Below, piece after piece: positions 7,901-59,883 of a stretch of 64,000 bases of DNA; the stretch's first letter is position 1, and each line of letters opens with the position of its first letter. Under the pieces are notes generated by a model. That model saw nothing but the letters and a program-made list of their open reading frames with translations. It did not search any database and was not told where the DNA came from. The stretch is taken from contig NC_091107.1 in the NCBI RefSeq assembly GCF_024713975.1, forward strand, positions 11,025,501-11,089,500, given 5' to 3'. Made by a program: the position numbers and the translations under genes. The DNA is from Paralichthys olivaceus. Taxonomy: Eukaryota > Chordata > Actinopteri > Pleuronectiformes > Paralichthyidae.

Positions 7901-10900
7901 AAGTGTCCTGATAAAGAAAAGAAATTGACCCCTTGTTGTTTTTTATCATTTATTAAATTGACTATTCAATTGTCATCCAGCATTCAAGTAAGCTGATAAA
8001 GGCGTATGTTGTTCAGATTAAATACACATTTTTATAATGTTTTGTACAATTAAAAACAACAACGCAAAGTTAAAAAAAAAAGTGTCTTTCTCTCTTTTCT
8101 TTTTTCCTTTTCAGAACATAAACGAATAAGAAAACCAAGCAAGCGGCTGATTGAATTGACTGAAGAGTACGATCAGATTTTCTCCACAAGGAAGAAAACC
8201 AAAAAGCTTCTCCAGTCAATTGGAAAGGTAAAAATCACACAAAGGTAGATGTGTTGAACTTTCTTATTACATTGTCGTTATATTTGCATAATGCTGGCAT
8301 TGGCATTAAGCATCCAATATCACGACATGTAAAAATGATCAGATTGACAATAAAATCATATTTGTTTTCTCAGGTCACTCAACCCATTACCTCCATGTCT
8401 GAAACCTCTGGATCAGACAAGAACGCACACGACCACCCATCCTTGAACTTACTTCCTGAAATACAGACGCCACCTCCTGAGGAAATAGCTGCAACAACGC
8501 CCTGTGAACTACAAATCCCCAGCACTGAAGACACGTCTCCCCAAGATGCACCGGTGCTTTCCATCGACACACTAACCCCTCCTCCTGAAGCTGAACCCTC
8601 GCTCTCAGGAGGCCTCGTCAAAGACAGCGGTGAGGCAGCGCTTGTGTTTCCTTCTGAAAGTCTTCTTGGTAAATGCGTGCACACTACAAGGCCAAATGTA
8701 TGTGGACAGGGCAGCCAGAGGGGCTACACATTGGCAACAGCTGTAGGTGGGGGCAGTGTGTTTTCAGGTTGTTCATCTACCATTCCATCAGCCCATCCCA
8801 CTCTTTAAAATACTATATCTGAAGACACAGTGAGGGAATTCATGCAAATTTTTCAGAAATTTACTTTTGGACACACGGATTAACTGAGTAGAATTTGGTA
8901 GTTAAAGGTCAACGTCACTTTGAATTCACAACCCACGTATCTTCAACCTTTTTAATATATTATCTCAAGGTTGTTTTGAAGGAATTTTTTGATCTTATGC
9001 ACAAACAATTATTTGGACTCAAAGATGATCAGATTCGATGTTGGTGATGTCACAAATCAAGGTTGCTGTGATCAGTATTTATCAGGATGGAGGAACAATC
9101 TGGATCTGGCACAATCAAGGATGTGCTGATTTGAATTTGGAGGTCAAAGTTCAAGGTTACTGTGACCTCACAAGTCATGCTATTGGCAACAACTCAAGAA
9201 TTTATTTTGTTTTTTATGTCAGTTTATCTTCAGTAGCACTACTGAAGTGTCTCGTACGAGTAAGGTACAATTGTTGTCTTTTTTACAGCTACGACTGAAG
9301 AGCAGGAAACCATCTACTTTGAAAGGCTTTAACCTGCAAATGTTTGTAATGAAGAAAATTATTAATCAGTTATCAAGACAGATCATTTTCAGTTGCTAAT
9401 TGTTGCAGCTGTAGTCCAGTCGTGATTTTTGCCGAATGGAATATGTGTCAAAGGTTTTGACATATTGTTTTGAAAATGTGGATGAGCGTCTTCTTGTGTA
9501 GTCTTAACCTGACTGTGACGCTCGGTTGACAGGAAGTGCTCCTCTGCTGGAGAAGAAGAGGAAGAGGAAACCCACTCAGAAGATCCTGGAGTACTGTCTG
9601 GAGGCCGAGGCTTCAACAGGCCCCAAGAAGAAGGTACAGCATGGCTGTGTTGTGTGTATAATTATTCACATGCGGTTTATCTGTCTCTGAGTAATTATAC
9701 TCTGAGGGACCAGCGCAGTACACACATCTGTACAATCCAGTGAGGTCAGATACAGTAGCTCTACAATAATTCCTGTTTACATGAAGATTTAAATAGATGT
9801 TTAGAATATCCTGTACCTTTCTTGTGTATAATTGTTTACTATTCACAGCAACAGTAACTGCAGCCTTCAAATGAACATTGAGGTAAATCAGCTCCTGTCT
9901 AACACAGTTTATACCCTCAACATTAAAACAGTTAATTCAATGAAGATGGAAAAACATTTAATAAATTATTATTAAATGATATTTAAATGTATTCTCTCTT
10001 TGTCAGACCAACAGATTTTCGTGGACTATCTTTGATTTTTGATGTTTCTCTTGTCACAGGTCAAAACACTGAAGAACAATTCAATTGCTGCCCCTCCATC
10101 AGGTTTGTAAATCATCTCAAAACAATATATATTGTGGTGGAGTTCTTAACAATTAAAGTTATTTCTTTTTACATCTCTTGAACCTTTATTAGTCGATATG
10201 TCTCGTCCATGATACCTGTTTCTAACATGTCAATTTCCCTCCCAGATTCAGGACCACCATCTCTGAAATTAAAGAGTAAGCAGATTACAGCATCCACCTC
10301 CACACCGACCACCCCAGAGGTTCCCACCTGTACGTCCACTCCCTCCATCCAGACCTCTCTCACTCCCAGCACTCCTGCACCCGCCACTCCAGCATCAGCT
10401 CCAGCCGAACCCGACCGGGAGGAGGTGGCACCTGAAGACGTTGATGCTCCTCAGCCAGAGGACTGTGAGGCTCAGGAGGTCAAAAGGGACACAGCAGAGT
10501 CAGAGGTCAGACATCTTTAGTTTTGTCAAAGATTTGTTTGTTAACTTAACTGCCAACATTTTTTGGAACTGCTGAAGATATAATGATTAAAAAATAGCTA
10601 AATGATCATTTCGTAAAACATGTGGGTAAAGTAGGTTTTTACAAAGAGAGAAAATAGTGCCTTTGTCTGGGAATATTTCATTCACGTATTTGTGGTGTGT
10701 GTGTTTGTTTACAGAATGTCAGCCTGCATCAGTGTGACTCATCAGAGTGTTTTTAAATAGTTTAAAACATGGATACAGTATCTCAAGTTTAGTTACATAG
10801 ACAGAACTTCCCAGCTGAATCAATTCATTATTATCTTCGTCTTTTTATGGGATTTGTTGATGAATTTTTGTTATTGAATGTAGAATTAGATCAGACTTAT

Positions 10901-13900
10901 CCTTTAATGAGAGCAAAGCCGGGTGTCATCTGTGCATTGGTGATAAAAATATCAGTAAAACTGGGTCTGATGATCCTTTTTCAGACTAAACATTTTAGTG
11001 ATGTATTATTGTTGCAGCGCTGTGTTATAGAGGTATTTTTTATCTTATTATTATTATTATTATAATAAACATAGTTTCCCTTGCTTATATGTTGCCCAAA
11101 AAAATCAACAAAGAATAAGACCAATGGTTCAAAATGTGTGTGATTCGGGTTATTCTATGCAGCTCAGTTCAGGCATGCACTGTTTTCCTTTGTTATTTTC
11201 TGCCTTGTGTCTGTACCAATGGCAGATAATTGAGTAGTGCATTATTTCTCCTCATCATCACATTTCCTTTTCATTTATGAATATTTTACATCCTCGTAAG
11301 GGCGATACGTCCAGCTTGGATCACAGTTTCTCCTCCACGAAGGACGACTTGTTGCTGTGTGACGACCCACATTTACCCTCAAGGAAGATCATAGGGGACC
11401 GAGGAGGCCCCGCTTCCATGAAGGAGAACATATGTCAGGTGAGTTCGATTCACTGAGCTGCCTCTACTTCAAACTTTCTGCAAAAAATTGAAACTTTCCT
11501 CTGAGTCTGATCTTCTCCTCATTCAGTTGTCTTTCTTTCAAACTTCTGGAACAGCTGGACACTGTTGTTTGTTTGAATCAGCTCTTCTTAGGACCTTGTT
11601 ATCTGATATGTATGTTGCTTTGTAACTCTGTACTGTGTCTTTTATTTAACCAGCAGAGTGTTGACCCAGGATTTATTTTAAAACACACTGAGAAAGTACC
11701 TGTGTTAAACTGCACTGGTTAAATAAAAGAGCAGTAGGTCACAGTTATCTTTTCAGTTTAATTTCTATGATACGACCACGCATTATGTCTCCAGGAGGAA
11801 ATGATGAAACCATAAAAGTCAAGCATTGTGATTTTTTTCTCGTGATGTAGGCTACAGTCTTCTGTTTTGGGAATTTGTAGATCCTTTAACAGCATTGAGA
11901 AGTTTTATAGTATAAAGCAGCTTCTTATGTCATGAGAAAACTTTTTTTTAATATGATGACTTACTGGAAAGATCCTCAGCAGACCTGCATATGGAAACTA
12001 AACTGTGATCTTGTGCAGCACTGCAGACATATGTGGATGCTTCTTTTCCACCTGAGCATCTAAACAATATAATATCATGTGTCATATGTCATATGTCAGT
12101 TTTAACACAACTGACCCCCATAGGTAAGTTGTGTAATAAAGTGAGACCTCCCTAGAAAAGGAAATTTGATTCCTTTTGTAAGTTGAAAAGTTTTTATTTT
12201 GGTCACATTCTTTAACAGAGCAGTTTCTAAATGACTTTACCCTAAGTACACATTTTACCAGTCTGTGGATCCCCAGTGAAAATGAAGAGATAATACCATG
12301 CTTTACCCGTCAGACCACAGGAAATGAAACCCAACACACAAGAACACTTTCTTAGCTACGCTGAAGCACTGTTTTTATGGCCTGTCTTTACAGTACGCTG
12401 TGTGTTTTAATGTCAGGTGTGTGAAAAGACGGGGGAGCTGCTGCTCTGTGAGGGCCAGTGCTGTGGAGCCTTCCACCTGGCCTGCATCTCTCTGGCCGAG
12501 GCACCAAGAGGGAAGTTTGTCTGTCCTGAGTGTAAATCAGGTTTGTCTGTGTTATTATACACATTTTACAGTTAAACTTTTATTACCTGAAAAAATACAT
12601 GATCCATAGTATGAAAGTAACCCAACTAAATAACATATATAGAGATACATTAATTAAGGCCCCTTTTCAGTGGGACCAAAGTATAATTTTTAAAATATAT
12701 AAATAATGATTTTATCATTCAAATTTCTCACCTGAAAGTTCTTGAGCTCCAGAACATTTAATTGAAAGGTTTAAGGAAAGGAAGTATTTCAAGAAACCTT
12801 TGGATTTCTGAAGTATTGTTCTGTTATACAAATAAATGAATCTGCATGATAAAAACTTTATTATATGGTGTTAACATGCACTGATGCAGTTAATTATACT
12901 TTTAAGGACTAAACTACCTTCATGATCCTTTTTTCTCTCCCAGGCGTCCACACCTGCTTCGTATGTAAAAAGCGCGGTGAGGACGTGCGGCGCTGTATGA
13001 TCCCTGTGTGTGGGAAGTTTTACCATGGGGAGTGTATCGCCAGCTTTGCCCCAACTGCGCCTGTGACCCGAGGCTTCCGCTGCTCCATCCACGTGTGTCT
13101 CACCTGCTTTATCTCCAATCCAAACAGCTTGTCCATCTCTAAAGGTAAACAGAGGAATACGATGTGATGACTCCTTCACCCTCTGCACTGTCCTTGTGCT
13201 CACCATCCACCTATCCTCTTGTTTTTGTCTGCAGGTCGTCTGGTGCGGTGCGTACGCTGCCCGGTGGCATATCATGCTACGGACCTCTGCATGGCGGCAG
13301 GCAGCGTCATCCTCTCAAACAACAGCATCATCTGTCCCAACCACTTCACCCCCAGACGAGGCGTCAAGAACCACGAACACGTCAACGTCAGCTGGTGCTT
13401 TGTCTGCACAGAGGGTACGACTTACAGTGGAGTCATTTCAGCTAAAAGTCTGAATCCTTAGATTAGAATAAGGGTAAGGAGTGCTGTTTGATGTTTTCCT
13501 TCTCCTGTGCTCCAGGGGGGAGTCTGCTCTGCTGCGAGTCCTGTCCCGCTGCCTTCCACCGGGAGTGTCTGAAGATCGAGATGCCTAAAGGCAGCTGGTT
13601 CTGCAACGACTGTAAGGCTGGGAAGAAACCTCGCTTCAAGGACATCCTCTGGGTGAAAGTTGGGCGGTACAGGTCAGTGACCTTGTTTGTTGATTGACTG
13701 TTGATATTTGCTTTTTGTCATTGTTAAACAAAATCATGTTCCTGTCTTTTCTCAAAGTATAAGATTTGTTTATCAGCTCATGCTGTTTTCAGGTTGCATC
13801 TGCTCATTAACTTGTTGTTAGATCTTTGTAACATCAGAAAACATTGAAAAACGACCATATTCTGAAGCACAGTGATCAATTAGTTAACTGATTGAAAATG

Positions 13901-16900
13901 TACCTTAAAAACTTTATGGTTTAATTAGTCCTACAATAGTAAACTGAATGTTTTTGGTTGTTGGACTCTGGTCAGAGGAAACAAGACATCTGAAGACATT
14001 ATTTTGGTCTTTCATCAACATTTCCATCCGTTTTTTATTTCGATCGATTTTTCAGCTAATTGAATAAAAAAGTAATTGATAGTGAAAATAATCACCACAG
14101 CTCTGCTCTACATACCAAATCATTCAGTTTAAATAGTTATTTTCTTCTGACAACATATAACTTTTCCTCGTCATAACAAATCTTTTTTAGGATTACACAA
14201 AATCAACACAGATCGCTTTATATAGTAGCTTTCAAAGAATATAGAGATGTACAGCATGAGCCATCAAAAGCTACAAACAACGAGGTGTCTGACAGACACA
14301 GATGCAGAGTCACTCCTGCATACTTGTCATTAAATTCTTAATCTACTCTCGTTGTACAGTTCTGTTTATTTATTTAGTCTTTGTCCGTCCCTCTGTAAAG
14401 GTGGTGGCCAGCAGAGGTCAGCCATCCCAAAAGCATCCCAGAGAACATCCAGCGGATGAGGCACGATGTCGGCGAGTTCCCTGTTCATTTCTTTGGCTCC
14501 AACGACTACCTGTGGACGTACCAAGCCAGAGTCTTCCCTTATATGGACGTGGACGCCAACAGCAAAGAGAAGATGGGGAAAGGTGTTGATGCCACCTATA
14601 GGAAAGGTATCCAGTGTCTTCAGCATGGTCTCTTTAGTTTATCGTGACAGTTTGTGTCTTATTTCACGTGTTTGTTTTAACTCGGTATGATGACTTTTCT
14701 CTCACCAGCTTTGGAGGAGGCGGCAGTGCGGTTTCGAGAGCTGCAGGCTGAGAAGGAGCTTCGGCAGCTTCAAGAGGACAGAAAGAACGACAGGAAACCT
14801 CCTCCGTACAAACATATTAAGGTCAGGGAGGAGATGTGTGATCTACTTTTTTTTTTTATTCGAAAAAGCTGCAACGTGCAGGGTTTCCTCAAATGTGAAG
14901 CAGTGTTTGAGTTTAAAGTTTAATTTTAAATTGTCTTAAATTGTATTCCTCCCTTTAGCTTTCAGCGTCTGTAGCGAGCCTTAAATGTGTTCATTCTAAC
15001 GTCATGTTTGCTTCTACTTTCCTCACTCATTCAGGTGAATCGACCAATAGGCAAGGTCCAGATCTTCACAGCAGACCTATCAGAGATCCCGCGCTGTAAC
15101 TGTAAGGCGTCAGACGAGAGCCCGTGTGGCATGGACTCAGAGTGCATCAACCGCATGCTGCTGTACGAATGTCACCCACAGGTACAGAAACACTTCCATC
15201 ACATTAGCACAAAGTCTCAGAACTAGAGAATCATAACACATCAGTAAAGTAAAATTGTAAGAACATGGTAAAGACTGTTGTGATCTTCTTTGTGTGCTCT
15301 GCTACTTCTGTCTTCATATTGTGTTTTTGGGTTGTCCGTCCGATTATTCTTGTCAGTGCGATGTGTTGGAACTTTCAGTACATCTGGCACAAACATCCAC
15401 TTGGACTCAAGGACGAACCGATTAGAATTAGAAAATCCTTTCAAATTTGGTACATATGTTCACACAGACTCACAGATTTGAGTTTGATAGTCAAAGGTCA
15501 CGGTAGCCTCACCAAACCTGTTTTTGGCCTTTTGAACATGATATCTCAGGTTTGTCTTTAGGGAATTTCTTTAAATTAACCGGTTGTCACTTGGACTCAA
15601 AGATTAAATGATTCGATTTCAGTTGCCAAAGGTGAAAGGTCACTTAAAAAAAATTATGTTGACCGAAAACTGCACTGGTCGATGGAGGCATACAACCACA
15701 AGGTGGTAATTCCAGTTGGATGTCGACCCTCTGAACCTGCAGGTTTGCCCGGCAGGTGAACGCTGCCTCAACCAGGCGTTCACCAAGCGCCAGTACAGCC
15801 AGGTGGAGATCTACAGAACACTATCCCGAGGCTGGGGGCTCCGCTGCGTCCATGACATCAAGAAGGTAAATACAACACTCATTAATGGTAGTACCACTAC
15901 TAATGGTTCTAATTACTGACACTGATACTTCTACTGTTGTACTGCTCAGCCACTGCTGTTCAGTGGGACTGACTCAGGCTAAATAATGAACGTTCTGCGT
16001 CCTATGTTGTTCTCTCAGGGTCATTTTGTGAGCGAGTACGTCGGGGAGGTGATTGATGAGGAGGAGTGCAGGTCGAGGATCAGACACGCGCAGGAGAACG
16101 ACATCTGTAACTTCTACATGTTAACTCTAGACAAGGTACGGTGTGTTTGTGTGTGAGTTTCACAAGAAAAGTTGTTTCAAACATGTTAAACTTGTGGGTT
16201 TTTTTATGTGTGTGTTTGTATTAGGACCGGATCATTGATGCCGGGCCGAAGGGGAATGAGGCTCGCTTCATGAACCACAGCTGTCAGCCAAACTGTGAGA
16301 CCCAGAAGTGGACAGTGAGCGGAGACACTAGGGTGGGACTGTTCGCTCTTGTCGATGTAGCTGCAGGTACGTGCTGCTTCATCTACATCACAAACACTTT
16401 TCACAAGTGGTTTGATCAACAGCTGCCAATTAATTCTATTGAAATGAGATGATGCTTTTGATTCAGAAACATTAGATAAACGCTGAGTATCTACAGGTTA
16501 AAACTCTGGAGTCTTCCTCATTCCACTTGTTAAATCCACTTTGAGAAAAACAACCTCTGATTTCAGAAAACAAGAAAATGATGGAACCTCATGTGTGGGT
16601 GTTCATAAAGATATTTAATTTCATTATTCTTGAAATATTAATATTGTTTTTTGGGGTTTGTCATGTTCATTGTGTGTACACACAAAAAACTTCACAACCC
16701 TATCTTTTCAACCATCGCTGTGCAAGCAGTTGATTGTATTTCTAACTGAAACGACTATGAGGCTCTAGAATCAAATCTTCGTGTGTGTCTGTTCAGGCAC
16801 TGAACTCACCTTCAACTACAACCTGGAGTGTTTGGGCAACGGGAAGACGGTCTGTAAGTGTGGAGCACCAAACTGCAGCGGCTTCCTGGGCGTCAGGCCA

Positions 16901-18114
16901 AAGGTGATGGCGATGACACAAAATAAATACCACTCAGTGTGATATATTGGTTAACAATTCATTGTGGTGGAAGTTCATTGGAAAAAAAAATGTCCCAGTA
17001 GTGAGATGTGAATTAGAGATAAAAAAATTCTCTGGACTTATAAAGAAAAATCAAAATACAAGTACAGCTATTAATCAACTCCTTTGTCCTCTGCAACCAG
17101 AACAACCCTCCGTCTGAGGACAAAGGTCGGAAGCTGAAGAGAAGAGGCAAGAGGAAGAAGAAGGTGGTGGTGGCCAAAGAAAGAGAGGACGAGTGTTTCA
17201 GCTGTGGAGATGGAGGACAGATGGTTTCCTGTAAGAGACCTGGATGTCCAAAGGTTTACCACGCTGACTGCCTCAACCTCACCAAGAGGCCAGCAGGTCA
17301 GTGACTCTGCACTCGTGTGTTTTTAATTAATTGTATCATGTTTTATTACATTTATCTTTGTATTTAAAATTGTACCCTCCTTTACATTCTTGTCTGTGCC
17401 TATATCATCGTTGCAGGTCGCTGGGAATGTCCATGGCACCAGTGCGACATATGCGGTAAAGACGCAGCGTCGTTCTGTGAGATGTGTCCTAGTTCTTACT
17501 GCAGCCAGCACCGCGACGGTCTGCTCTTCATCTCCAAGCTGGATGGTAAACTGTGCTGCAGCGAACACGACCCCTGTGGGCCTGACCCGCTGGAACCGGG
17601 AGAGATCCGGGAGTACACGCCTGAACCGAGAGCCCTGACCTCAGGCCTGGGCATGGCCGTCATCCCCTCTGCCGCTCCTAACGCAACCACCACTTTGAAC
17701 CCGGCTGTCAGAAGGGTCCAGGAGATCAGCACCAGCGCTGACACGTGTGCTTCCGAGTCATTTCCTGCCTTTTCCATCCCGGTGCCCATCACCATTCCCG
17801 TCGCCGCTCCTGCCGCTTCACCTCCTCACCCGAGCAGCTCTGATGCTCCCAGCAGCCCACAGGTGTTCGACCTGCCGCACTATTCGCCCATCTCTTCGTA
17901 TGAGGAGGAGAGGGACGTCTTGGAAGAGGAGGAGGAAGAGGAGGATGAGGAGGACGAGGAGGACGAACTGGCAGAGGTGGAGGAGGAGTTAGTGGAAGAG
18001 GTTGAGGAGAGGAGGCAGAAATCAGATTCTAATGAAGAGGATGGAGAGTCAGTGATGGACGAGGAGGAGGAGGAGGAATACCTGGAAATCAAAGATGACG
18101 AGGAGGAGGAGGAG

Positions 18115-18146
<32 letters not shown>

Positions 18147-18156
18147 GGAAGAGTGA
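1929..18156 (+). CDS. nsd1: Histone H3 lysine-36 methyltransferase NSD1 (23 coding exons)
   Basis: Nuclear enzyme that mono- and dimethylates H3K36. Coding exons: 1929-2816, 3272-3413, 3758-3930, 4100-7208, 8115-8227, 8374-8629, 9533-9633, 10060-10102, 10246-10505, 11301-11438, 12417-12540, 12944-13144, 13235-13414, 13516-13672, 14401-14606, 14709-14821, 15035-15181, 15743-15865, 16019-16135, 16225-16366, 16797-16903, 17101-17296, 17417-18156. They total 7776 nt (2591 aa; human about 2696). Order: disordered N-terminus; PWWP1 (RRPWWPCEV, about 309-400); a 1036-aa disordered exon; PHD fingers (about 1742-1960); PWWP2 (RWWPAEV); AWS (from about 2069); SET with [11 protein letters not shown] and NHSCQPNCE; post-[14 protein letters not shown] and C5HCH; acidic tail. 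NSD1 rather than NSD2/NSD3 is indicated by [34 protein letters not shown] and TEEYDQIF, all close to human NSD1. The first intron inside the coding region appears to be GC-AG. Neighbouring rab24 matches human synteny. The fish a/b paralogue cannot be assigned. Confidence 0.96.
4783..5820 (+). repeat. nsd1: Degenerate protein repeats in the large nsd1 exon
   Basis: The disordered part of the large exon repeats a loose motif of the form (S/A)D-x-(S/x)-G-x-S-x-x-x-K. Examples are [11 protein letters not shown] (from 4786), [11 protein letters not shown] (from 4924), [11 protein letters not shown] (from 5059), [33 protein letters not shown] (from 5410), [12 protein letters not shown] and SDLSGSSAQ (from 5797). 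The first two copies are the most alike and are about 45 residues apart. I know of no counterpart in human NSD1. Confidence 0.5.
8870..9290 (+). repeat. Dispersed fish repeat (family A), copy 1
   Basis: Lies in the nsd1 intron before exon 9533-9633. It shares phrases with copies at 15350-15715 and 19690-19860: TTGGACTCAAAGAT, a TTAACTGAGTAGA-like string and GGTCAAAGGTCAC-like strings. It has no coding capacity. Upstream, 8680-8800 also looks repeat-like (GGCCAAATGTATGTGGAC). Confidence 0.6.
15350..15715 (+). repeat. Dispersed fish repeat (family A), copy 2
   Basis: Intronic in nsd1, between exons 15035-15181 and 15743-15865. It shows the same sequence order as copies 1 and 3. It ends in a typical GGAGGCATACAACC string followed by AAGGTGGTAATTCCAG, only about 30 bases before the next exon. 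Confidence 0.65.
17905..18153 (+). repeat. nsd1: GAG/GAA-rich repeat coding an acidic C-terminal tail
   Basis: About 80 codons at the end of nsd1 are dominated by GAG and GAA with some GAT/GAC. They give an almost unbroken Glu/Asp tail up to the stop codon at 18154-18156. Human NSD1 ends instead in a long Pro/Ser/Gln-rich region. The stretch is purine-only over long runs and is likely to vary in length between individuals. Confidence 0.9.
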
Positions 18157-46017: not shown

Positions 46018-47725
46018 ACTTTCCATCAGCCCACTGGTGTGTGTGTGTGTGTGGGTGGGTGTTGCTGAGTGAATGTGTGAGAGGTCGATAGGTTCCTGTT
46101 TACTCCTGAAACCTTCCCCACCCTGCAAAAAAACACCTGCTTTCTCTGCCATTTCATCTTGTATTCAGGCTTTGTGTTTAAAGTAATGTCAGCTGTGGTT
46201 CACGGAGGAATCATGTCCCTTGCCTCTAATCCTTCAATGATGGCTGTAACAAGTAGAGCCCTCTGCCTTATTTCTCAGAATTAAGACTAAAACTGATCAA
46301 ATGGCTTGTTATGGTGGAAGTTGTTTCTTTGCTCTGGTGATACATTTCCCTGTTGACCTACGACTGAAACATCGAAAGTGTTACCGTCACACGGTGTCGG
46401 AGTTCTGCTTAGCTTCTCTGACTCATCTGGATTACTGCTGTATAAGTGGAGTCGTCAGTTCACCCCTGAGGAACTTAAACACTGGCTCTTGAGTATATGT
46501 GCGTGTATGAATGTGTGTATTGCTGCGTCACTTTTCCATAGCTGCCCCAGAACATCAATGCACCTCCTTTGACAACGTGGTATACATTCGGTATATATAT
46601 ATAGAAATGGTTAATGTGTGTGTACCTTGACGTAATACTTTCTGTCTGTTCACACTAACGTTGGCTCGGTTCTCGTCTTCTCTGGCTGTTGGTTTGAGCA
46701 GCGTCAGACTGAGATGTGTTGATCTCAGCTGATCTGTTCAGGTTAATAAAACCGTCTCTGTGTAAAACTCCTGTCCGACCTGTTTCTTTATTCTGAAGGG
46801 CTTTGCATGATGTAATGTTGTCACAGTGCAGCGTATTCTGTGATGTGTTATCACCTGCAACACAGTTATCTACCAGCTAAGGTACAATGAGAATTCCTTG
46901 TCTCTGTATAAAGTTGGATGTTGTGTTGGAATTTCCTCCCACTTTTCAGAAAAGAAGCCAAAATATCCTTGGCATATGCGCTGCCATCTTGAACCAATCA
47001 CGTCATGTCGAGCCAGAATTTGCACAGCAGCAGTCGGGGGCTGGACCAATCGAGTGTGAGTCTCATGTCAATAATGACTGTTTTCATAGCATCAACAAAT
47101 TAGAAACAAAACTGGACAGAAATCAGTGTGAAACTACCTGAAATGAAAAATGTATGACGTGGCCTATTAGCTTGAAACATGTTCCATCCACTAATATAGA
47201 GGAGGCAGGGTTTAGGACCTAGAATGCAATACTACTTTGGTTTCACTTTCAGGGAGGAGTCATGTCGTCCATCTTTATGTACGGTCTGTGAAGTACATGC
47301 GCAGCTCCCTCCATTTTTAATACACTTACTATGTCTATAAATATCTGAATCAAATGTAAAGTCATCTCCATCTTAAAGCACTATTCTGTTCCTGCAGTTT
47401 CATAAACTCTACTCTAAGACGTAGTGCTCAATTTTTCATACCCAGGAAAAAAAACGCACAAGAACATCAAATATAAACAACAACGTGTCTTTCATAGGAA
47501 ATGGCAGTTAATTACTTTATATATATTGTATGTTTAACCACTAGATGGCGCCCTCTGTTTTCACAGACAATACACAATGAGGGTTCATGAGTATTTATTC
47601 ACACAGCTGTCCACATCATTTGCACATCATACAGCAGAGACACAATAAAACTGAGCAACTTGTACTTTCAGGTACGGACAGAGGCTGTCTGCATCATTCA
47701 CTGATGTTTCTGATGAGGGTCCTCG
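46018..47725. other. pgk1 3' UTR, repeat and LAT2-like 3' UTR
   Basis: The pgk1 3' UTR contains a (GT)n run near 46036-46052 and a poly(A) signal at about 46743. A family D repeat lies at 46930-47295. The LAT2-like gene on the other strand has an AATAAA (minus) at about 47599-47594. No further gene is seen. Confidence 0.65.
46930..47295. repeat. MITE-like dispersed repeat (family D), copy 2
   Basis: Contains GAGGAGGCAGGGTTTAGGACCTA, GGTTTCACTTTCAGGGAGGAG and TCATGTCGTCCATCTTTATGTAC. It is homologous in reverse complement to 29840-30200, with an internal deletion at the CCCCTGGTGG segment. Confidence 0.55.
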
Positions 47726-50700
47726 TCAGGTGCAGACCTTGCTTTCATTCACATAATCGGACTCTGACTCAGCTGTTCCAGAAATAAAGACATTTCACAT
47801 TCAGTGTAATAAGTGAATACGGCAAATTAGCAGCTTTCAGAATGTCTATATATTCACTAAAAAGTATAAAGGGTTTTATGCTAAAGTTATTGTGTGTTAC
47901 ATTGTGTATGAGTCAGATGTAAAATCAACGTAAAAAGGGTTAAGTGTTCTTAGACATTTTTAGGGTATAAAAAAATCTAACAAAAGTACAAATACACATT
48001 ATCTCTATTATTCCACAGGCAGCAGTGTTAATGTCATGAAGTGTGTCTTTTTGTGAAGTATAGGAAAACATTTGATTCGATTTCTAGGTTTTAACGCTGC
48101 TGATGACCTCTGCACAAACTCCGTGACAGAGTCGTCATCACTGTAAAAGACTAGCAGAGGCATTCATCAGCATTTTAACAAGCGTATTATAACTGGCCTT
48201 AGATGTTATGCAACACTCGACAGAAATGAATGGATTTGTGAAGAAAACCCTCTGGATAAGCAGCTGGATGTTTGACTGTTGGCTCACGTTAAGCTGTTAA
48301 AGAAAAGTTTGGACGATGGAATCTGATTGGCTGGTTGTTAGGGTTGGTGCATGGCCCCGTTTCTATGGTGTTTCTAGGTAGTTGAAAGGATTGATTTTGT
48401 GGTTGCCGGGGTGATTCAGGGTGATTGCTAAGGACGGGTGAATGATTTCAATGTTCAATGTGTGTTTTGTTGTAGAGTTCACTCAGGTACGATTTTCTGC
48501 AGCAGGTTTAACTACATTAACTACTGTACATGAGGCCTCTGCTGAGGCACTGGTGCAGTTATATGTTCTCTCTTTTTCTACCTCAGTCGTTCCAGTTGGT
48601 ACTTACATTACGATATTGAATATTTTTAGAAGGAGAAGAAACAGCTTTAATATGTTTGAAAAAGCAGCAGTTTCACTATTACTGTACTAACTCGTTTTTA
48701 AACCTTTAAAATTTTCGGATCTGTTTTTCAACTCTGATTTCAAAGTTTCACAATCACTTCCAGTAAATACCTTAAGGCCAATACACTGTATTCAAGGAAA
48801 ACACGAAATACCAGTGATTCGTTAAACTATGATGTAAAAGAATCTCTCTCCCTCTCTCTATCACTATCTCTATCTATCATTATACAGATAAACCTTTGAC
48901 CTCTCTTCTTAAAAGGTGATTTATAATATATATCACAGTTGTAATAATTGCCTGTGAGTTTACTTCAGCTCAGGCAGGCTACAAAGAGTTTGTAATTTAA
49001 TGTAAATTACAGATTAATACTCCATTAAAAAAACAACACTGACTGTTCTACTCACAATCTTCTTGTTGTTGCTGAGTTTGCTCTAGGAATTCCGAGTTTT
49101 CGTAGTCATCAGCATCTGTTGGAATGAGTAGAGCTTTAAGGCACTGGAGCCCATGAGCAATAATGTCTGTCTACTAGATATGTTGATACAGAGGACAGTG
49201 GACATACCATCTTTTATTGGCAATGATTGGAAAAAGTTTTCATAAACACTGAATGGTTGATCAGCACCTAGACAACAAACAACAACAATGTGTAATTAAT
49301 GTTGAAATGAATAAAATATGTCATTTGGAGAAACTGGTGACAAACACATTTCAGTTTTAAAGGGTAAAGAAAAGAGGAGCAAATAAAAATGCTCACCAGC
49401 TTCAACTTTTGTGATCTGTTCATTTCCATACACTGCGGCCGGGAGTGGAGATCTAAAGACAATACACAGACCTGACATTTGTGAACCCACTGTTCTGTAT
49501 GTAAGTAGATTTATACTTGAATGGCCACGTAGCCACATCAAGAACTTCATACAGAGTTCAGTCTAAATGTTTAAATGTTTCTCATGGAGTTTGATTCACA
49601 CTGACTCCACAGAGTTATTCAATGTAAATACGAGCTAAAATAATAAAGCTCATTAAATACAATTATGTAGTTTTGGTGAATGTTTTTTTTTATTCTTCTG
49701 AAGCATCTGGAAAACCAAAGTTTTAAATGAAAAATAACATTTAAAGAAACCTTTTTTTTATTTTTAAAAAGGTCTAGACTTCATACTCAGATGAATTATT
49801 TAATTTTATTTAATTCTTAGACAAAAATTCCATTAAATCTTTAGGAAAATCTATATTCAAAAAACGTGATGCTGAAATAAAGTATGTTTCGATTTAGTAC
49901 TGTTGGAATAAGGGAATGAGCAGAGCTGATGTACTTACACGTATGTATGTTCCAGTTTCCTTGTGTGAGGTGCAGCAGTGCAGACTAATACAGAACAGCA
50001 ATGATGCAGTCAGACAATAACAAAAACACAAATACTTGAAAATGAATGTAATTCCGTGTTTTATGTGCGTGTTGTGTATGGAAAGTTACCTTGTTTGACA
50101 TTTTCATAATCTGACTGTTCATCAGCTTCGTCTGTAAAACAGGGTGAAGGATTAAATCTTCAGATAATTCAGCTCACTGCAGGTTTATGTAAAATGAGGG
50201 CTGCTAAATCTTGCGAAAATAAAAGATAAGCTTACTAAATGATAGTTCCTCTTGAATTTCACTGAAAAAATACATGAATTAGTGGTTTTCTGCATAGACT
50301 ATAACATCCAATCTTTGAGTTTAGTTTATTTTTAACTTGTGTTCATAAAAACAAATACAAACTGCAATACACAGAGATGAGATTAGTTTATATATTGTTA
50401 TATACATACACTGTGGTTGAAGTTATCTGATTGGTTCTGGTGACTGGGGGAAAATATATCAGAGTTGGTTAAATATGCAAATTAAAAGTGAATAATAAAT
50501 AGGAATCCCTGCGGGAAATATCTTTGATAACTTGTCATCAGCAGATACGGTGTCTGAAGCTGGAACTGTACTTTACCTGGTCTTGACTGCATCACCGCAA
50601 AAATACTTCCCCCACGTTGGCTGTTGAGACAAGAGTATTTTAACGTCAACTTTTTATACAGTAATAGAAAAATGTACTGTAATGTCGTAAAGGGATCAAT

Positions 50701-51645
50701 TTTACACTGTGATAGCTTCAAAATAGAAGGTTTTGATAATTATTTGAACAGTTTATCTTTGACTAAATTATATCACAACAATTAAACTGATGTGTTTAAT
50801 ATAATCTTGAACAACAGAAATTTGTAAAAATGACAGTAATCTGTAACGTGGCTGTAGGAAAGTGGACAGAATATTAGATTCTTACAATGTCTGCAGGTCA
50901 TATGTGTGATGCTCCTCCTGTATGATCTCTGCAACAAATAAAACACAGTGAAAACTCAGTATTCAACACTTTAAACTAAGTTGCATACAAGAACTCAGGC
51001 TCGTGTGTTTCTAAAAAACTGAATATGTTCTGTGCAATGGAAGCAGACAGTGAACTAGAATGATATTCAGAAGAGCACAGACCTCCAAGGCTGATAAGTC
51101 TCCTTGAATTCAAATCAAACTGCACCAAATCACACTCACTTGTAGATCTAAGATCCCTAAATGTGTCTGTTTTTTAATCAAGATCCATAAATTACTCGCC
51201 AGGAAATGATACAAATGTCGAAACCCTATCTCACAAAGTTAAAAAAAATCGGATCTGCCGCCTGATCCAGATCTGCACATAAATCTGATGAGTTCTTCCT
51301 GACCCAGGTTTCCTTCCACCAAGGATCACTTGGACAGAGGCTGAAAGGAGGAGCAGCAGCAACATGAGGAAATAATGTGTTTACTGAACATCAGAGGAAG
51401 TAAACCTTTTCAAGTAATAACTCAAATTAAAACAGCGAGCCTGAGCATGAGCTGGATCTCTTTTAAGATGAAAAACAAAAAAACAACGCACAAATTCAAT
51501 GTGTGAGTGAGGCTGCTGTTTTCATCTATCGGCTGTACTTACTGGTCTTCCTTTTACAGCACAGACACAGAAAAGACAGGAGACTCAGTGACACCACTGA
51601 CGCACCAGTCAGGACTGCACCCGACACACTGGAGTTTCCAAACAT
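47726..51645 (-). CDS. lat2: LAT-family transmembrane adaptor, LAT2/NTAL-like (11 small coding exons)
   Basis: Predicted palmitoylated scaffold that, like LAT2, would recruit GRB2-type SH2 proteins below immune receptors. Minus-strand exons from the start: 51645-51543, 50928-50886, 50620-50577, 50443-50410, 50261-50236, 50131-50090, 49984-49939, 49452-49397, 49267-49208, 49115-49056, 47772-47726. They total 561 nt (186 aa), and every junction has GT-AG sites in matching phase. The protein has a very short ectodomain (MFGNSSVSGA), one membrane helix (about 10-27), then CLCCKRK, a juxtamembrane palmitoylation motif. The tail carries tyrosine motifs YDLQ (44), YENV (92), YVVS (112), YGNE (121), YENF (140), YENS (156) and YVNE (178). 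The order SDYENV, DDYENSEFLEQ, DYVNES parallels SYENV, EDYQNSASIHQ, DYVNGE of human LAT2. Neighbouring kctd7 fits, since both human genes lie on 7q11. LAT itself is the alternative. The start is the first ATG after an acceptor, so an untranslated exon lies upstream. Confidence 0.82.
51060..51325 (-). repeat. Dispersed fish repeat (family E), copy 1
   Basis: On the minus strand it ends in GGAGGTCTGTGCTC and contains AGATAGGGTTTCGACATTTG-like text and GGATCCTTGGTGGAAGGA. This resembles the common teleost repeat whose start reads CCTCCGCCAAGGAGGTTATG. Intronic in the LAT2-like gene. Confidence 0.55.
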
Positions 51646-53554
51646 ACCTACAAGACGCACAAAAGACACACATGACCGACTGTCCTACATGCACCCACTG
51701 TCATCACTGCTCAATAACTATCAACCAGCACAGAAGTGGAGTGATGTGTTATTCATTTAGTGAGGCGGTTATTGAGAGTTTATCACTGAAAACACTGCTG
51801 GTCAATGAGTGTACTCTCCTCTTCTCTGTCATGGTTGAGGTAGTTGCTGTTTACTGTTAATAAAACCGAGTGAACAGGAAGTGGTCGACTGAAACTGAAA
51901 CACAGTTTAGGTTTTATATACAAGACAAACGCCTACTTGCCAGTCCTCAAATCATTAATGTGGTACAGAAACATTAAAACAGCTTTAGAGTAATTATATA
52001 CAGCTTTATCTACAGGCAGGGAATTCAAAAAGGTCTCGTACGGTTAAGCTTTTGGTTGGGATTAAATTGAGTCGTACAAAGACTGATAAATGTCAAATGT
52101 TAGATGTTCACCTTCACACACAATTGTTACACCATTTCAGTCCCAGGGCTTTGTTTCGAAAGTGACGGAGGAAACACTTTAAAAAAATACTACATATCTT
52201 CAGTGTAGGTACTTCTGCATTTATCAGCTAAAAAAAAAATAACAAAGTAAAAATAACAATGAACATTAAAACATTAGAAATAAGAAAGGAGAGACTACAT
52301 CAGCAGAAATGGTCGCTGGCTTAAAGGAAACTATTGGTAAAAGTCTTGATTCTTGATTGCCGTCCTAATTCTCTGCATTTATGTTATGCAACAGGGTCAG
52401 AAAGTTTGATCCACTCCCACGTGTCTTTAGTTTTTAGTTTATCTTTGCCGCTCTGCTGTAAAGCTAATGGTGTCTGATGTTACAATACATGCACACTATG
52501 TCTCTGATCGACTGCTGCCATACGTCTCCTGATGACTCAATCAGCAGACAAGACGTCTTGTCACTTGAACGAGTCTGTGAAAATTATTCTGTTCACTGAC
52601 AGTATTTTTTAAATGTCAAATCTATAATATCTGTGAATGGCAACAACAGTATGGTTAATGTGAGGGAAAGTGGTGAGTTGTTTGTCTGTGATGGGACACA
52701 GACATGTCCCCAAACTGCAGTCGTTTCACATGGGTTTAAAGGCAAACTGTCCTGGGTGTAGCCCACCTCTCGTCCAATTTCAGCTCCAGTCTCACTGTGA
52801 CCCTTGAAGGTCAAACAGTATAGATGACAGATGGGTGGATGCTTTTATAGGCCTGACAGAAATGTTAGTGTCTCCATCAGGAACATCATTTGCAGGTCAA
52901 ACACACATACATATTAAATACATTGTGAATCTATTTTAAAGGCACAGACATTAATCAAACATTATGATGTGTGAAATGTTGGCGTACTACCTTCAGTGGT
53001 CCTGCTGCCTTCATTCTTCATATGAAGCAGAGCAGACTGTACTTCCTCTTTCAACACCTCACCACATCCGCCTCTCTCAAGACAAATGAGAGAAGACCTC
53101 CCCGAAGCACATATCTACAATCTCCGTGTGGTTTGAACTGGACACATCTATAACACAGCATTTAGCATTCGGTAGTTTAGTTTGCAGCTAACTTCTCAGA
53201 GGCTGATCTTTAGAAAAAGCCTTAGTGGTGAGATCAAGTTTCCTGTGTAGCTGTTGTTCCGTTTTATGAGATATGAGATAAAAGAACAGCATTAAACTGT
53301 TGTTACCGTGGTCCTGCCTCTTGAGGTGAGCTGGTGTCTGCACAAAAACCAGTCAGACTCTGAGAAACCAAAATTGAACAGTTTAGCCTGAACCGCGAGC
53401 ATCATAGAAAACCAGGCACCGATAATTATCAACCGATCAATACCAGTCCATCGGAGAAGAATGCTGCTGTGGGATGTTTCTCAGCAGCAGGGACAGGGAG
53501 ATTTTTCAGGGAATGCTGAGCAAAGTAAAGAGATGTGTTTAATGAAAACCTGGT

Positions 53555-55123: not shown

Positions 55124-58100
55124 ATGGTGGTGTTCTCGGCCGCGGGGGACACCGACAAACCCAGCGATGCCATGTCCGGCTCGGACTCTGCGGAGGACGA
55201 GCTCCGGAAGCCGCCGGCCTCCCCTTCGCCGAGCCGCAGCCTGAGCAAGCCGCTGCGCCCCGCGCTGAGCGCACAGGAGCAGGAGGTAGGCCGCTCCACG
55301 GACCCGATGGACGGGGACCAGCACCACGTCAAAGAACAAGCGAACACAGCACACACGAGCTAACAGTCTGAAAACAACACTCACATCATGTCCAGCTGCA
55401 GATAGAAAAGCGACACAGTAAGGAAGTATCCACGTAAACCTACTATTTACCAGTGAATAATAACATGTGTCATCCATGACACCAGAAAAGTACTACACAC
55501 GCAGTTCCACAGTCTCCATGTTACACCAGTCCTCACAACCACAGTGTCCAATACATAGTGTTATGACAGCTTGTCATATGATCACTATCACCTGAATCTT
55601 CCCCTGATGAGAACTATAACCTTCCCATTCTTTTATTTCACTCCTTATTGTAAACTACAAGAAACTTTATTTGTATGAAACAAAGTGCTTAAGAAAGAAA
55701 CTCATATATCTAGCCTAAATGATGAAATAATGATTATTCTATTCAAAATATTTGCTGCATGTGGATACTGGTCACTCCTCTAATTGATGCTGCACACATA
55801 GTTTCATAGTCTGATGTATGGTAACAATATGTACAAGGAGTGCTTCAAAGATTGTCCACAGATGATTCTGAAATATGTCACCTGTTTTGTGGTTGGTGTG
55901 ATTCAGCTGGGCCCTGATTCAGGTCAGGATTGGCTGACAGTTGTGTCACCTGACTCGTGATAATGAGCCAACATATGATGTGTCCTAAACATGGCTAAAG
56001 CAGAATAATCCTCTTATGGTACTCTGGTGTGTGACTGCAAAGTAACAGCTGACCAGACGCTTGGAGTGGCATGTTCTTCCTCACATAGGAACACACAGCT
56101 GTACGAACAGAGCAGCATTTTTACTCGGTTTCTTTTGGTGACATACAACAACACAATGCTTAAAGATTGCACATATGCTCTGCGGAGGCTAATGCTCTGT
56201 CTCACAATGTAACAGAACATGAAAAAGTATTCCTGCATCCACATGTTTATCAAGATTCGCTCCAAAATGTAATGGGTTCTTGTTTGTGTCATGCCCCACC
56301 CCTCCACAACATTTCATGGGAATTGCTCCAGCAGTTTTTGCATAATCCTGCTAATTAACAAACACTGATGAAAACATAACCTGAGGTAATTAGCTGCTTT
56401 ACTCATGTAAGAAAATGTGTTCATAGTGCTAAAGTACAGCGGGAGGGGGAGTTATATCATTTAACCACTATAATGTAGTTACATAAGAGTAGTCGGTAGT
56501 ACTACACTACACTGATGCTGTTTAGTTATGTACATTTTACCTGATAATGGTCTGAGGACTGAAACAGCACTAAATAGGATGGCACGTTTTGTTCATTTTT
56601 CTAAATTTTGTTCAGTAAGTTGTTTATGTCTGATGTCTGTGGACTTTTAGTCTTGTTCACTGAAATTAGTTCCATTCTCATCTCAAGTTTCCAGAGGTCA
56701 TCTCTCTGAACGTTGGGGGCATGTACTTCACCACCCGTCTGTCCACGCTACGGCGATACGAGGACACGATGTTGGCTGCCATGTTCAGCGGGCGTCACTA
56801 CATCCCACGTGATGCTGAGGGACGCTACTTCATTGATCGGGATGGAACGTATTTTGGGTGAGCAGCAAAAGTATTCATAAATTTTTTTTTCTTTAACCCC
56901 CCCCCCAAAAAGATGTGGCCCTAATCCTCTTCAATAGAGATCCATCAGTGTCCAGACAAAACTAATAATATTTTACAGAGTATGTTTTTTTCTTATTTAG
57001 TGCAAAATAACAAACATACAATCTGTGAAAAAACTGATTTACATAAACAGGGACAGTAACATACAAAATAATATAAAGCTGTGACTTAAATACAAATTGT
57101 AAAGATCCATATGTGAAATACACAGAAAAAAGAAATGAATCACAATATTCCTCAACAATCTAGTCCTTAATGTATCACAATACCAGATGTAAGGAATTAA
57201 GAGGCAGGATTAAGATAAAAGCTTTTCTTGAACCAGGTTGTTTTGGTGGATGAGGATTTGTAGCACCTCCCAAAGGGCAGAGGATGAGAAGTTGAGAAAT
57301 CACCATAGTGACTTCATCCTTACAAGCAGGCGGAAGGATTCGTCCTCAGGGGACCACAATGTGTGTGCTGATTTTTATAAGATATAAACCGGACCGACAT
57401 CTTCATCATCCCTGGAGCCACGTCGCTTTCAAGGCTAAAAAGGAAAAGCAAATTACTTTTAAATATGAATGAGATAAGAAGATGTACAATTTAAGACACA
57501 AGGAGTTCACAGAATCACAGTTAACTACAAAAAGCTAAATATTAAGACCCCTCAGAGGCTGCCAGCCCACTGCAGGTGTACAAATATTCTGAACGAGCCT
57601 TTAATTTGGGATATTAGTCCTGGTGCTCTGGGGGGTTATTGTCTTGCTGGAAAATGAATCTTCTTTCGTGCTGCTGTTGTGTACACTGCAGCAGCTTTTC
57701 CTCCAGGACCTCTCTGTATTTTTCTGCATTCATTTTTTCCTCAGTGTTCACAAGCCCTGCAGGTTCTGCTTCTCAGAAGCAGAAGCGAAATCTACTTTAT
57801 CGGCCAAGAATGTTGATGCATACAAGTTAAATGAGAACCATCCTCAGAAGCTCTAAATAAACTTACTCACAGAAGTAAAGGCAGTGACTAATATAGAGTT
57901 ACAGCTACATAAAGATAGTTAGAACTAGACATGTAGCTTGTATGTACAGGTAAATAATAGGCATGAAAATAGATGAATTAAATACATTTCTAAATTTAGA
58001 AACTGTAAAGGGGCTCGAATATCCAGCACATGAAATATCTGAGAAACCAAGACAGTGTGATGCTTTAAATTTATTTTTTGTTTTTGTGTGTTGTTAACCT

Positions 58101-59883
58101 GGTTCCTCTCCCCATCAGGGCACCTCTGTGTTTATGTGATTACTAGAAATGATTGAAAAGTAAGTTTTGTTAAAATCTGTTTCCTGACTATTTTTATTGA
58201 TCAGTGTAGTTCAACTAATCACTGCACTGTCATCATCTGTGTTATTTAAAGAAGGATTCATCAGGTGGGATTATAGTCATGTGTGGACATGTTCTTCTCC
58301 TACCGTTTTCCACCCAAAGGGACATCCTGAACTTCCTGCGAGAAGGCGAGCTTCCCCACAGGAACCGAGTGCGACCGGTGCACAGGGAAGCTCAGTACTA
58401 CTCCATCGGCCCGCTGCTGGACAGCCTGGAGGACATTCAGCCGCTCACGGGAGAGAAGGTTCGACAAGCGTTCCTCGATCTGATGCCCTATTACAGAGGT
58501 AACTGAGACAAGAGTCATTGTTTCAGTCTGTTGTCCAGGGAAATATTACAAAATGAGCATCAAAGCTTCATCTGTGTATTTTAAGGGTTAGGGTTTTTCA
58601 AAGTCAAACACTATTAACTACAAATTAAGTGACCTACATCGTGGCTTACAACTTGAGTCCAATTGTTTTAGCTGATATTTGTTCACATATTGGCAAACTG
58701 GCACCATTGAAACTACACAGAATTAGCTCATATCAGCTCCATCAATAGATCAATAGAAAACTGACTTCTGATGATGCTCGTTCTGCTGTTATAAGTAGAG
58801 TCTTTGTCTAAGAGCATATATTGATGTGCATTTATGATGGACATCTGTGGTATTAATATCTTTAAAACGCAATTTAAAGTATGTGTTTCATGTGTGCGTG
58901 TTACTATTTGATGGTTCAGAGAAAGAACAATTTTGATGTGAATAAGGTATAGCTCCCCTGTTTTAGCAGGCACCCTTTGCACAGGTTCTAACCCTTTACT
59001 GCATGTCTTCCCCACTCTTTCTCCATTTCATACTTAATTCTCTAAAGAGAAAATGCTCTTAAAAAAAACTTGAAATAAAAGAATTGCAGCAGTCGCATTT
59101 TGTTGCTTTAACTTCATTCCAGGGTCAAGTCAGCTGGTCAACCTTACAATAACTGACTTCCTGTCGTTTTTAGAGCACCAGCATCCTTCTCCCCTCACAC
59201 AGCATATTTTCCTTATCTCTCAGACGCCCGCTTCAACTCTCCTGTGTGTTTAAAAAATCTCTGCATTATTTCAAAATCCACACTGCAGCACATTTCTCAT
59301 ATAAATTATAGGCTTACTCGTTGCAAAGGGATTACTGCTGAGTACAGTGTTCACTTTGTAAGTTTCCCAGGGACGTGGATTTAACAGCACATGCAATCGA
59401 TCCAGTGGATTTTGTTTTGTTTTGTTTTGATACATGACGATTCAGGATAAAAAGAGAAAAACTGCAACTAAAATTGCATTAATAAATGTCATTCTTTTCA
59501 TTTCAGACAATCTGGAGCGCATTGTAGAGATCGCCAAACTGAGGGCCATGCAAAAAAAGGCACGATTTGCCAAGTTGAAGATCTGTGTCTACAAGGAGGA
59601 GATGCCCATCACGCCGTACGAGCGTCCTCTTTTTAACTCTCTGCGCTTTGAGCGCTCGGACAGCGAGGCCAAGCTCTTTGAGCATCACTGCGAGGTGGAT
59701 GTCTCCTTCGGACCATGGGAGGCAGTGGCGGACGTTTACGACCTGCTGCATTGCATCGTCAGTGACCTGGCCGAGCGGGGCATCACTGCCGAGCAGCAGT
59801 GCATCGGTGTCTGCGACAAGCACCTTATCAATCACTACTACTGCAAGAGGCCCATCTATGAGTTCAAGATCACGTGGTGGTGA
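55124..59883 (+). CDS. kctd7: BTB/POZ protein KCTD7 (4 coding exons)
   Basis: Cytosolic BTB (T1-type) protein. The human gene is mutated in a progressive myoclonic epilepsy, and the protein binds cullin-3. Exons 55124-55285, 56688-56857, 58320-58498 and 59507-59883 total 888 nt (295 aa; human 289). After a Ser/Pro-rich N-terminus the BTB domain runs from about residue 55 (FPEVISLNVGG, RLSTLRRYEDTMLAAMFSG, FIDRDGTYFGDILNFLR). The rest, including MPYYRDNLERIVEIAKLRA and the C-terminus HLINHYYCKRPIYEFKITWW, is nearly identical to human KCTD7. I chose the ATG at 55124 because MVVF and the later AMSGSDSAEDE parallel human MVVV and AMSSSDAEDD. The first exon lies in a CpG-rich region whose upstream GC-rich open frame (from 54920) is probably untranslated. 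Confidence 0.97.
56215..56400 (-). repeat. Dispersed fish repeat (family E), copy 2
   Basis: On the minus strand: GGTTATGTTTTCATCAGTG, TTAGCAGGATTATGCAAAAAC, TTCCCATGAAATGTTGTGGA, AGAACCCATTACATTTTGGA. This is the start of a repeat well known in teleosts, here in kctd7 intron 1 and in the same orientation as the 51060 copy. Confidence 0.75.

Follow-up and report, generated by a model that had tools for sequence, protein, structure and literature searches.

A LAT2 (NTAL/LAB) adaptor gene of eleven short coding exons in the flounder Paralichthys olivaceus

The window analyzed here is a 64,000-nucleotide stretch of the Paralichthys olivaceus genome (assembly GCF_024713975.1, contig NC_091107.1, positions 11,025,501 to 11,089,500 of the forward strand). 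Matches to solved structures served to name PGK1, KCTD7, a PGRMC1-like protein and an NSD-type methyltransferase in it, and when eight open frames were compared to Pfam, five matched at E≤0.001, two of them (PWWP and Cyt-b5) below the curated cut-off. The NSD-type histone methyltransferase gene occupies 3170-18156 on the plus strand and includes a Cys-His-rich region. Its best structure match is an H3K36/H4K20-specific enzyme, a name that designates NSD1, followed by NSD3 and NSD2; the 1108-amino-acid open frame at 3980-7306 of this gene showed no Pfam domain. The gene that is the subject of this study, lat2, lies on the minus strand. The nearest identified genes are PGK1 on its 3′ side, in a tail-to-tail arrangement, and KCTD7 on its 5′ side, head to head. 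The C-terminal coding exon of KCTD7 (59431-59880, plus strand) has a solved-structure match with an E of 2.7e-75 that extends to residue 297 of 297, while a candidate first exon at 55124-55330 had no solved-structure match at E≤1.

The lat2 coding sequence was rebuilt exon by exon. It runs from 51645 to 47726 and adds up to 561 nucleotides including the stop codon, which encode 186 amino acids. The eleven coding exons measure, from 1 to 11, 103, 43, 44, 34, 26, 42, 46, 56, 60, 60 and 47 nucleotides; all 10 introns are GT-AG, with phases 1,2,1,2,1,1,2,1,1,1, the reading frame is kept across all junctions, and the chain has no internal stop codons or frameshifts. A preliminary description of this DNA, made by a reader without tools, had proposed this same model, including the range of 26-60 nucleotides for ten of the eleven exons, and the reconstruction reproduced it exactly: the eleven short exons had been spliced correctly. 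The remark that the gene is invisible to open-frame scans was borne out too, as the minus strand of this region has no open frame of at least 100 amino acids. The term micro-exons was accurate only in that the exons are short. The usual cut-off for a microexon is about 30 nucleotides, and exon 5 alone falls under it.

Coding exon 1 (51543..51645) carries the start codon, a tiny ectodomain, a transmembrane helix recognized by eye and the juxtamembrane cysteines of the motif CLCC. Exon 2 (50886..50928, phase 1-2) includes Y44 in the context HTYDLQ, which is opposite human Y40 in the alignment described below, and is followed by exons 3 (50577..50620, phase 2-1), 4 (50410..50443, phase 1-2) and 5 (50236..50261, phase 2-1). 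The remaining exons each contribute a tyrosine motif: Y92 (YENV) in exon 6 (50090..50131, phase 1-1), Y112 (YVSP) in exon 7 (49939..49984, phase 1-2), Y121 (YGNE) in exon 8 (49397..49452, phase 2-1), Y140 (YENF) in exon 9 (49208..49267, phase 1-1), Y156 (YENS) in exon 10 (49056..49115, phase 1-1) and Y178 (YVNE) in exon 11 (47726..47772, phase 1 to the stop). A probable polyadenylation signal, AATAAA, identified in the sequence only, is found at 47594..47599, also on the minus strand. Being symmetric (phase 1-1), exons 6, 9 and 10 preserve the frame, as do the pairs 3+4 and 7+8, so that skipping of these units can alter how many sites the protein has while the frame stays intact.

The gene is already known, as public records exist for flounder lat2 and for many relatives. 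A deposited P. olivaceus protein of 197 amino acids (P0001) contains all 186 residues at 100% identity and differs from the window protein in having 11 additional N-terminal residues, MKNEGSRTTEG; it is labelled 'uncharacterized protein', although a precomputed LAT2 domain, calculated with another model version, is attached to the record. A protein search with the 186-amino-acid product found 25 proteins at E≤10, among which those of the flatfish relatives (plaice, halibuts and turbot) share 66-79% identity; one turbot gene model that is missing some exons is lower, at 46%. A profile search, in which the 7993 best candidates were scored, found 169 proteins at E≤10; among the best 120 of these 169, the recognizable names are those of ray-finned fishes, with one cluster also labelled ferret. 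After pairwise mapping of the flounder exons to 121 other fish records, mean identity over aligned residues was 37-67% for each of the eleven exons, the lowest value being that of exon 5, mean coverage was 76-100%, and each exon was missing from 0 to 4 records. Compared with P0005, turbot model P0024 has two gaps, one of 78 and one of 102 nucleotides. Flounder exons 3+4 and 7+8 have exactly these lengths, and their positions, judged by eye, agree as well. The lat2 junctions are thus supported by gene models, as distinct from reads. The preliminary description had considered a chain of such junctions very unlikely to arise by chance, and the identical deposited protein and the conservation of all eleven exons in other fish agree with this. 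The eleven-exon chain is a real gene. The 186-amino-acid protein had no match at E≤10 among solved structures. No study of the fish gene was found in a literature search on fish LAT2/NTAL, as judged by the titles and abstract openings among the matches listed, several of the matches for LAT2 concern amino-acid transport instead, and lat2 is absent from the main text of PMC11426453.

The top Pfam match of the window protein is LAT2 (PF15703), with an E of 1.4e-05 and a score of 25.5 bits, 1.5 bits under the 27-bit cut-off of the family; beside it the list has a single further entry, ATP1G1_PLM_MAT8 (E 0.29), and the LAT profile gave no match at E≤10. When P0001 and nine relatives were scanned, two of the ten passed the PF15703 cut-off (29.3 and 32.2 bits), P0010 and P0023 matched no Pfam family at E≤1, and P0025 matched SIT alone and weakly (E 0.052). 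In the larger set of 122 fish records, LAT2 was matched at E≤0.01 by 64 and not by the other 58, GAPT by three (best E 3.8e-05), and HORMA, DUF5679 and TIP_N by one record each, whereas none of the 122 matched LAT, LAX, PAG or SIT at that threshold. A search with human LAT2 found 307 proteins, and the best 120 of these 307 were all mammalian as far as named, with no fish name. Fish and mammalian LAT2 profiles, built from 17 fish records and from 16 mammal records drawn from 120 listed, were aligned by hhalign nearly end to end, over 175 columns, with a probability of 97.8, an E of 7.7e-13 and a score of 88.0. Forty column-shuffled controls reached a probability of at most 0.66 and a score of at most 18.0, and one reversed control a probability of 0.06.

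Comparison with human LAT2 (P0123) showed the same architecture: one N-terminal helix, a C-x-x-C pair, a membrane-near tyrosine, five Y-x-N motifs and a Y-x-x-P motif, all colinear. Identity in the alignment is 20% (20-25% when six mammals are considered), and the flounder protein is 57 residues shorter than the 243-amino-acid human form, which is the one used for human numbering. When 122 fish records were aligned jointly with 120 mammal records, the seven cytoplasmic tyrosines of the flounder protein proved colinear with those of human LAT2. The outer juxtamembrane cysteines, C27 and C30, are each present in 121 of the 122 fish records, and their columns hold a cysteine in 115/120 and 109/120 mammal records, respectively. 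Where human LAT2 reads CVRC, the flounder sequence reads CLCC, with a middle cysteine shared by only 6/122 fish records, flounder included. The overall design also resembles that of LAT, as outlined in PMC4861716. The LAT-family design that had been recognized at the outset holds for the tiny ectodomain, the single helix (both read from the sequence), the juxtamembrane cysteine motif and the Y-x-N sites, with LAT2 as the family; the surplus of Y-x-N sites attributed to it does not.

This surplus, five Y-x-N sites against three in mammalian LAT2, had been taken to mean that the fish protein may bind more GRB2-like partners. Human LAT2 also has five (YQNF, YYNW, YENV, YQNS and YVNG), so the fish protein has no surplus; the figure of three agrees with the main proven sites alone, Y136, Y193 and Y233. 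Flounder Y92 aligns with human Y95 (YQNF), Y140 with Y136 (YENV), Y156 with Y193 (YQNS) and Y178 with Y233 (YVNG). Flounder Y121 is opposite human Y119, the second tyrosine of YYNW and one residue past the Y that opens the human motif, so that YGNE and YYNW are one residue out of register. The four sites that align without offset are kept in 109-120 of the 122 fish and in 94-117 of the 120 mammal records. Five motifs were counted in 95/122 fish and 58/120 mammal records, and four motifs in 46/120 mammal records, where the records are cluster representatives that include isoforms and fragments and are not independent of each other. PMC4861716 describes the five motifs of NTAL as putative GRB2-binding sites and NTAL as lacking a PLCγ1 motif. 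The idea that the fish protein has more GRB2 partners than its mammalian counterparts was rejected on these counts. None of the seven flounder tyrosine contexts is a YLVV-like site, YLVV being the PLCγ1-binding motif of LAT, and in this the flounder protein differs from LAT.

In Pleuronectes platessa, two isoforms (P0002 and P0008) differ in that X2 is missing, as seen by eye, 14 residues that include YENF. Judging from these two records, how many Y-x-N sites the protein carries may depend on splicing in this species.

Flounder Y112 (YVSP) is opposite human Y110 (YIDP) in the joint alignment, and a Y-x-x-P is found at this column in 117/122 fish and 103/120 mammal records, a conservation similar to that of the Y-x-N sites. 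Y-x-x-P is a motif of CRK-family SH2 domains. A literature search for a link between CRK and NTAL found nothing, going by the entries listed.

The public record implies that the transcript has a further exon ahead of coding exon 1; the 3′ end of this upstream exon is at 52991, and splicing joins it to 51647. The upstream exon, which is probably untranslated, was followed over 52991..53069 on the minus strand (donor GTAGTA), where 53069 is the start of the compared stretch as opposed to a 5′ limit. Joined to 51647 it yields the MKNEGSRTTEG extension of P0001. It contains, at 53040..53051 of the same strand, the candidate element AAAGAGGAAGTA, which we take to be a PU.1/Spi-B-type ETS motif. The pattern AAAGAGGAAGTR, chosen only after the site had been seen, has one exact match in the window, at the AAAGAGGAAGTA site, where 0.08 are expected, and was present in 8/100 shuffles.

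Twelve of the 122 fish records have a similar N-terminal extension, and 11 of these 12 reach far enough upstream to be examined for AAAGAGGAAG. For nine of them the frame that could encode AAAGAGGAAG is KEEA, and for the other two, P0074 and P0076, it is a different one (ERGS), as compared to 9 of 1083 background pieces of 40 amino acids that could encode it; the extensions are homologous and vary in length, and these counts are therefore no independent statistic. By eye, halibut record P0011 starts out along flounder frame 1 and changes over to frame 2. The frames of the other fishes were deduced from their proteins. In favor of a translated extension, the flounder frame leading into it has no stop between the last one upstream and the splice site, and the first ATG in that frame is the one that starts MKNEGSRTTEG; against it, this ATG is found in only one of the 12 extended records, that of flounder. 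Because the frame switches across fishes, the upstream stretch looks conserved as DNA, in the manner of a 5′ untranslated or promoter element, and not as protein. The N-terminal extension was judged unlikely to be real protein, given the ATG unique to flounder among the 12 records and the two frames used for AAAGAGGAAG. The extensions in flounder and some related fish records are probably mis-annotated untranslated sequence, and from its sequence the fish AAAGAGGAAGTA would be a binding site for PU.1 or Spi-B.

Short exons, a large choice of GT-AG pairs and the many alternatives that were enumerated could by themselves favor a chance assembly or a pseudogene. However, with an identical protein deposited, all eleven exons conserved in other fish and no stop or frameshift in the chain, either explanation has a negligible probability. 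It is somewhat easier, yet still highly improbable, to suppose that the gene is a fish LAT, GAPT, SIT1, LAX1 or PAG1. These adaptors are of the same design, each combining a single helix with a short ectodomain and with tyrosines that dock SH2 proteins, and the three GAPT matches and the weak SIT match mentioned above point in that direction. Against them stand the 64 records that match LAT2, the lack of any match to LAT, LAX, PAG or SIT at E≤0.01, and the tyrosines colinear with those of human LAT2.

The gene order bears on a different question, whether the locus holds a one-to-one orthologue of mammalian LAT2 or a paralogue derived from LAT2, for example by the teleost genome duplication. 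EIF4H and RFC2 adjoin human LAT2 at 7q11.23, and in the gene-order comparison with this region the nearest identified flounder genes were PGK1 and KCTD7 instead; some of the fish records, moreover, are named si:dkey-183i3.6 and not lat2. Human KCTD7, however, is located at 7q11.21, close to LAT2, so the lat2-KCTD7 neighborhood may be an old shared block. We regard a paralogue as unlikely. The window gene is an ordinary LAT2, and we are highly confident that it is a functional teleost LAT2 (NTAL/LAB) gene.

The gene structure, the homology and the conserved sites come from the comparisons described above, and a mode of action can be outlined on them by carrying over the palmitoylation, phosphorylation, partners and cell types of mammalian NTAL. 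The 186-amino-acid product would be anchored in the plasma membrane by its single N-terminal helix, exposing a tiny ectodomain, and C27 and C30 would be palmitoylated. Upon firing of an immunoreceptor, Src-family and SYK-type kinases would phosphorylate the LAT2 tail. The five Y-x-N sites would then recruit GRB2-type SH2 adaptors, and Y112, in its Y-x-x-P context, some other SH2 protein, and LAT2 would in this way scaffold and tune signaling in B and myeloid cells. The short exons may act as docking-site cassettes.

These observations led us to a joint proposal, which we advance tentatively and to which we assign slightly less than an even chance. The PU.1/Spi-B-type element, kept as DNA and not as protein across several percomorph families, would place the transcription of lat2 in B and myeloid cells under the same ETS control as that of mouse Lat2, a gene whose promoter Spi-B binds. 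Y112, in turn, would be an ancient site, so far overlooked, at which an SH2 protein other than GRB2 docks, of the CRK type or another. The candidate element would mark the lat2 promoter region, and the Y-x-x-P site, common to fish and mammals, deserves a search for its partner.
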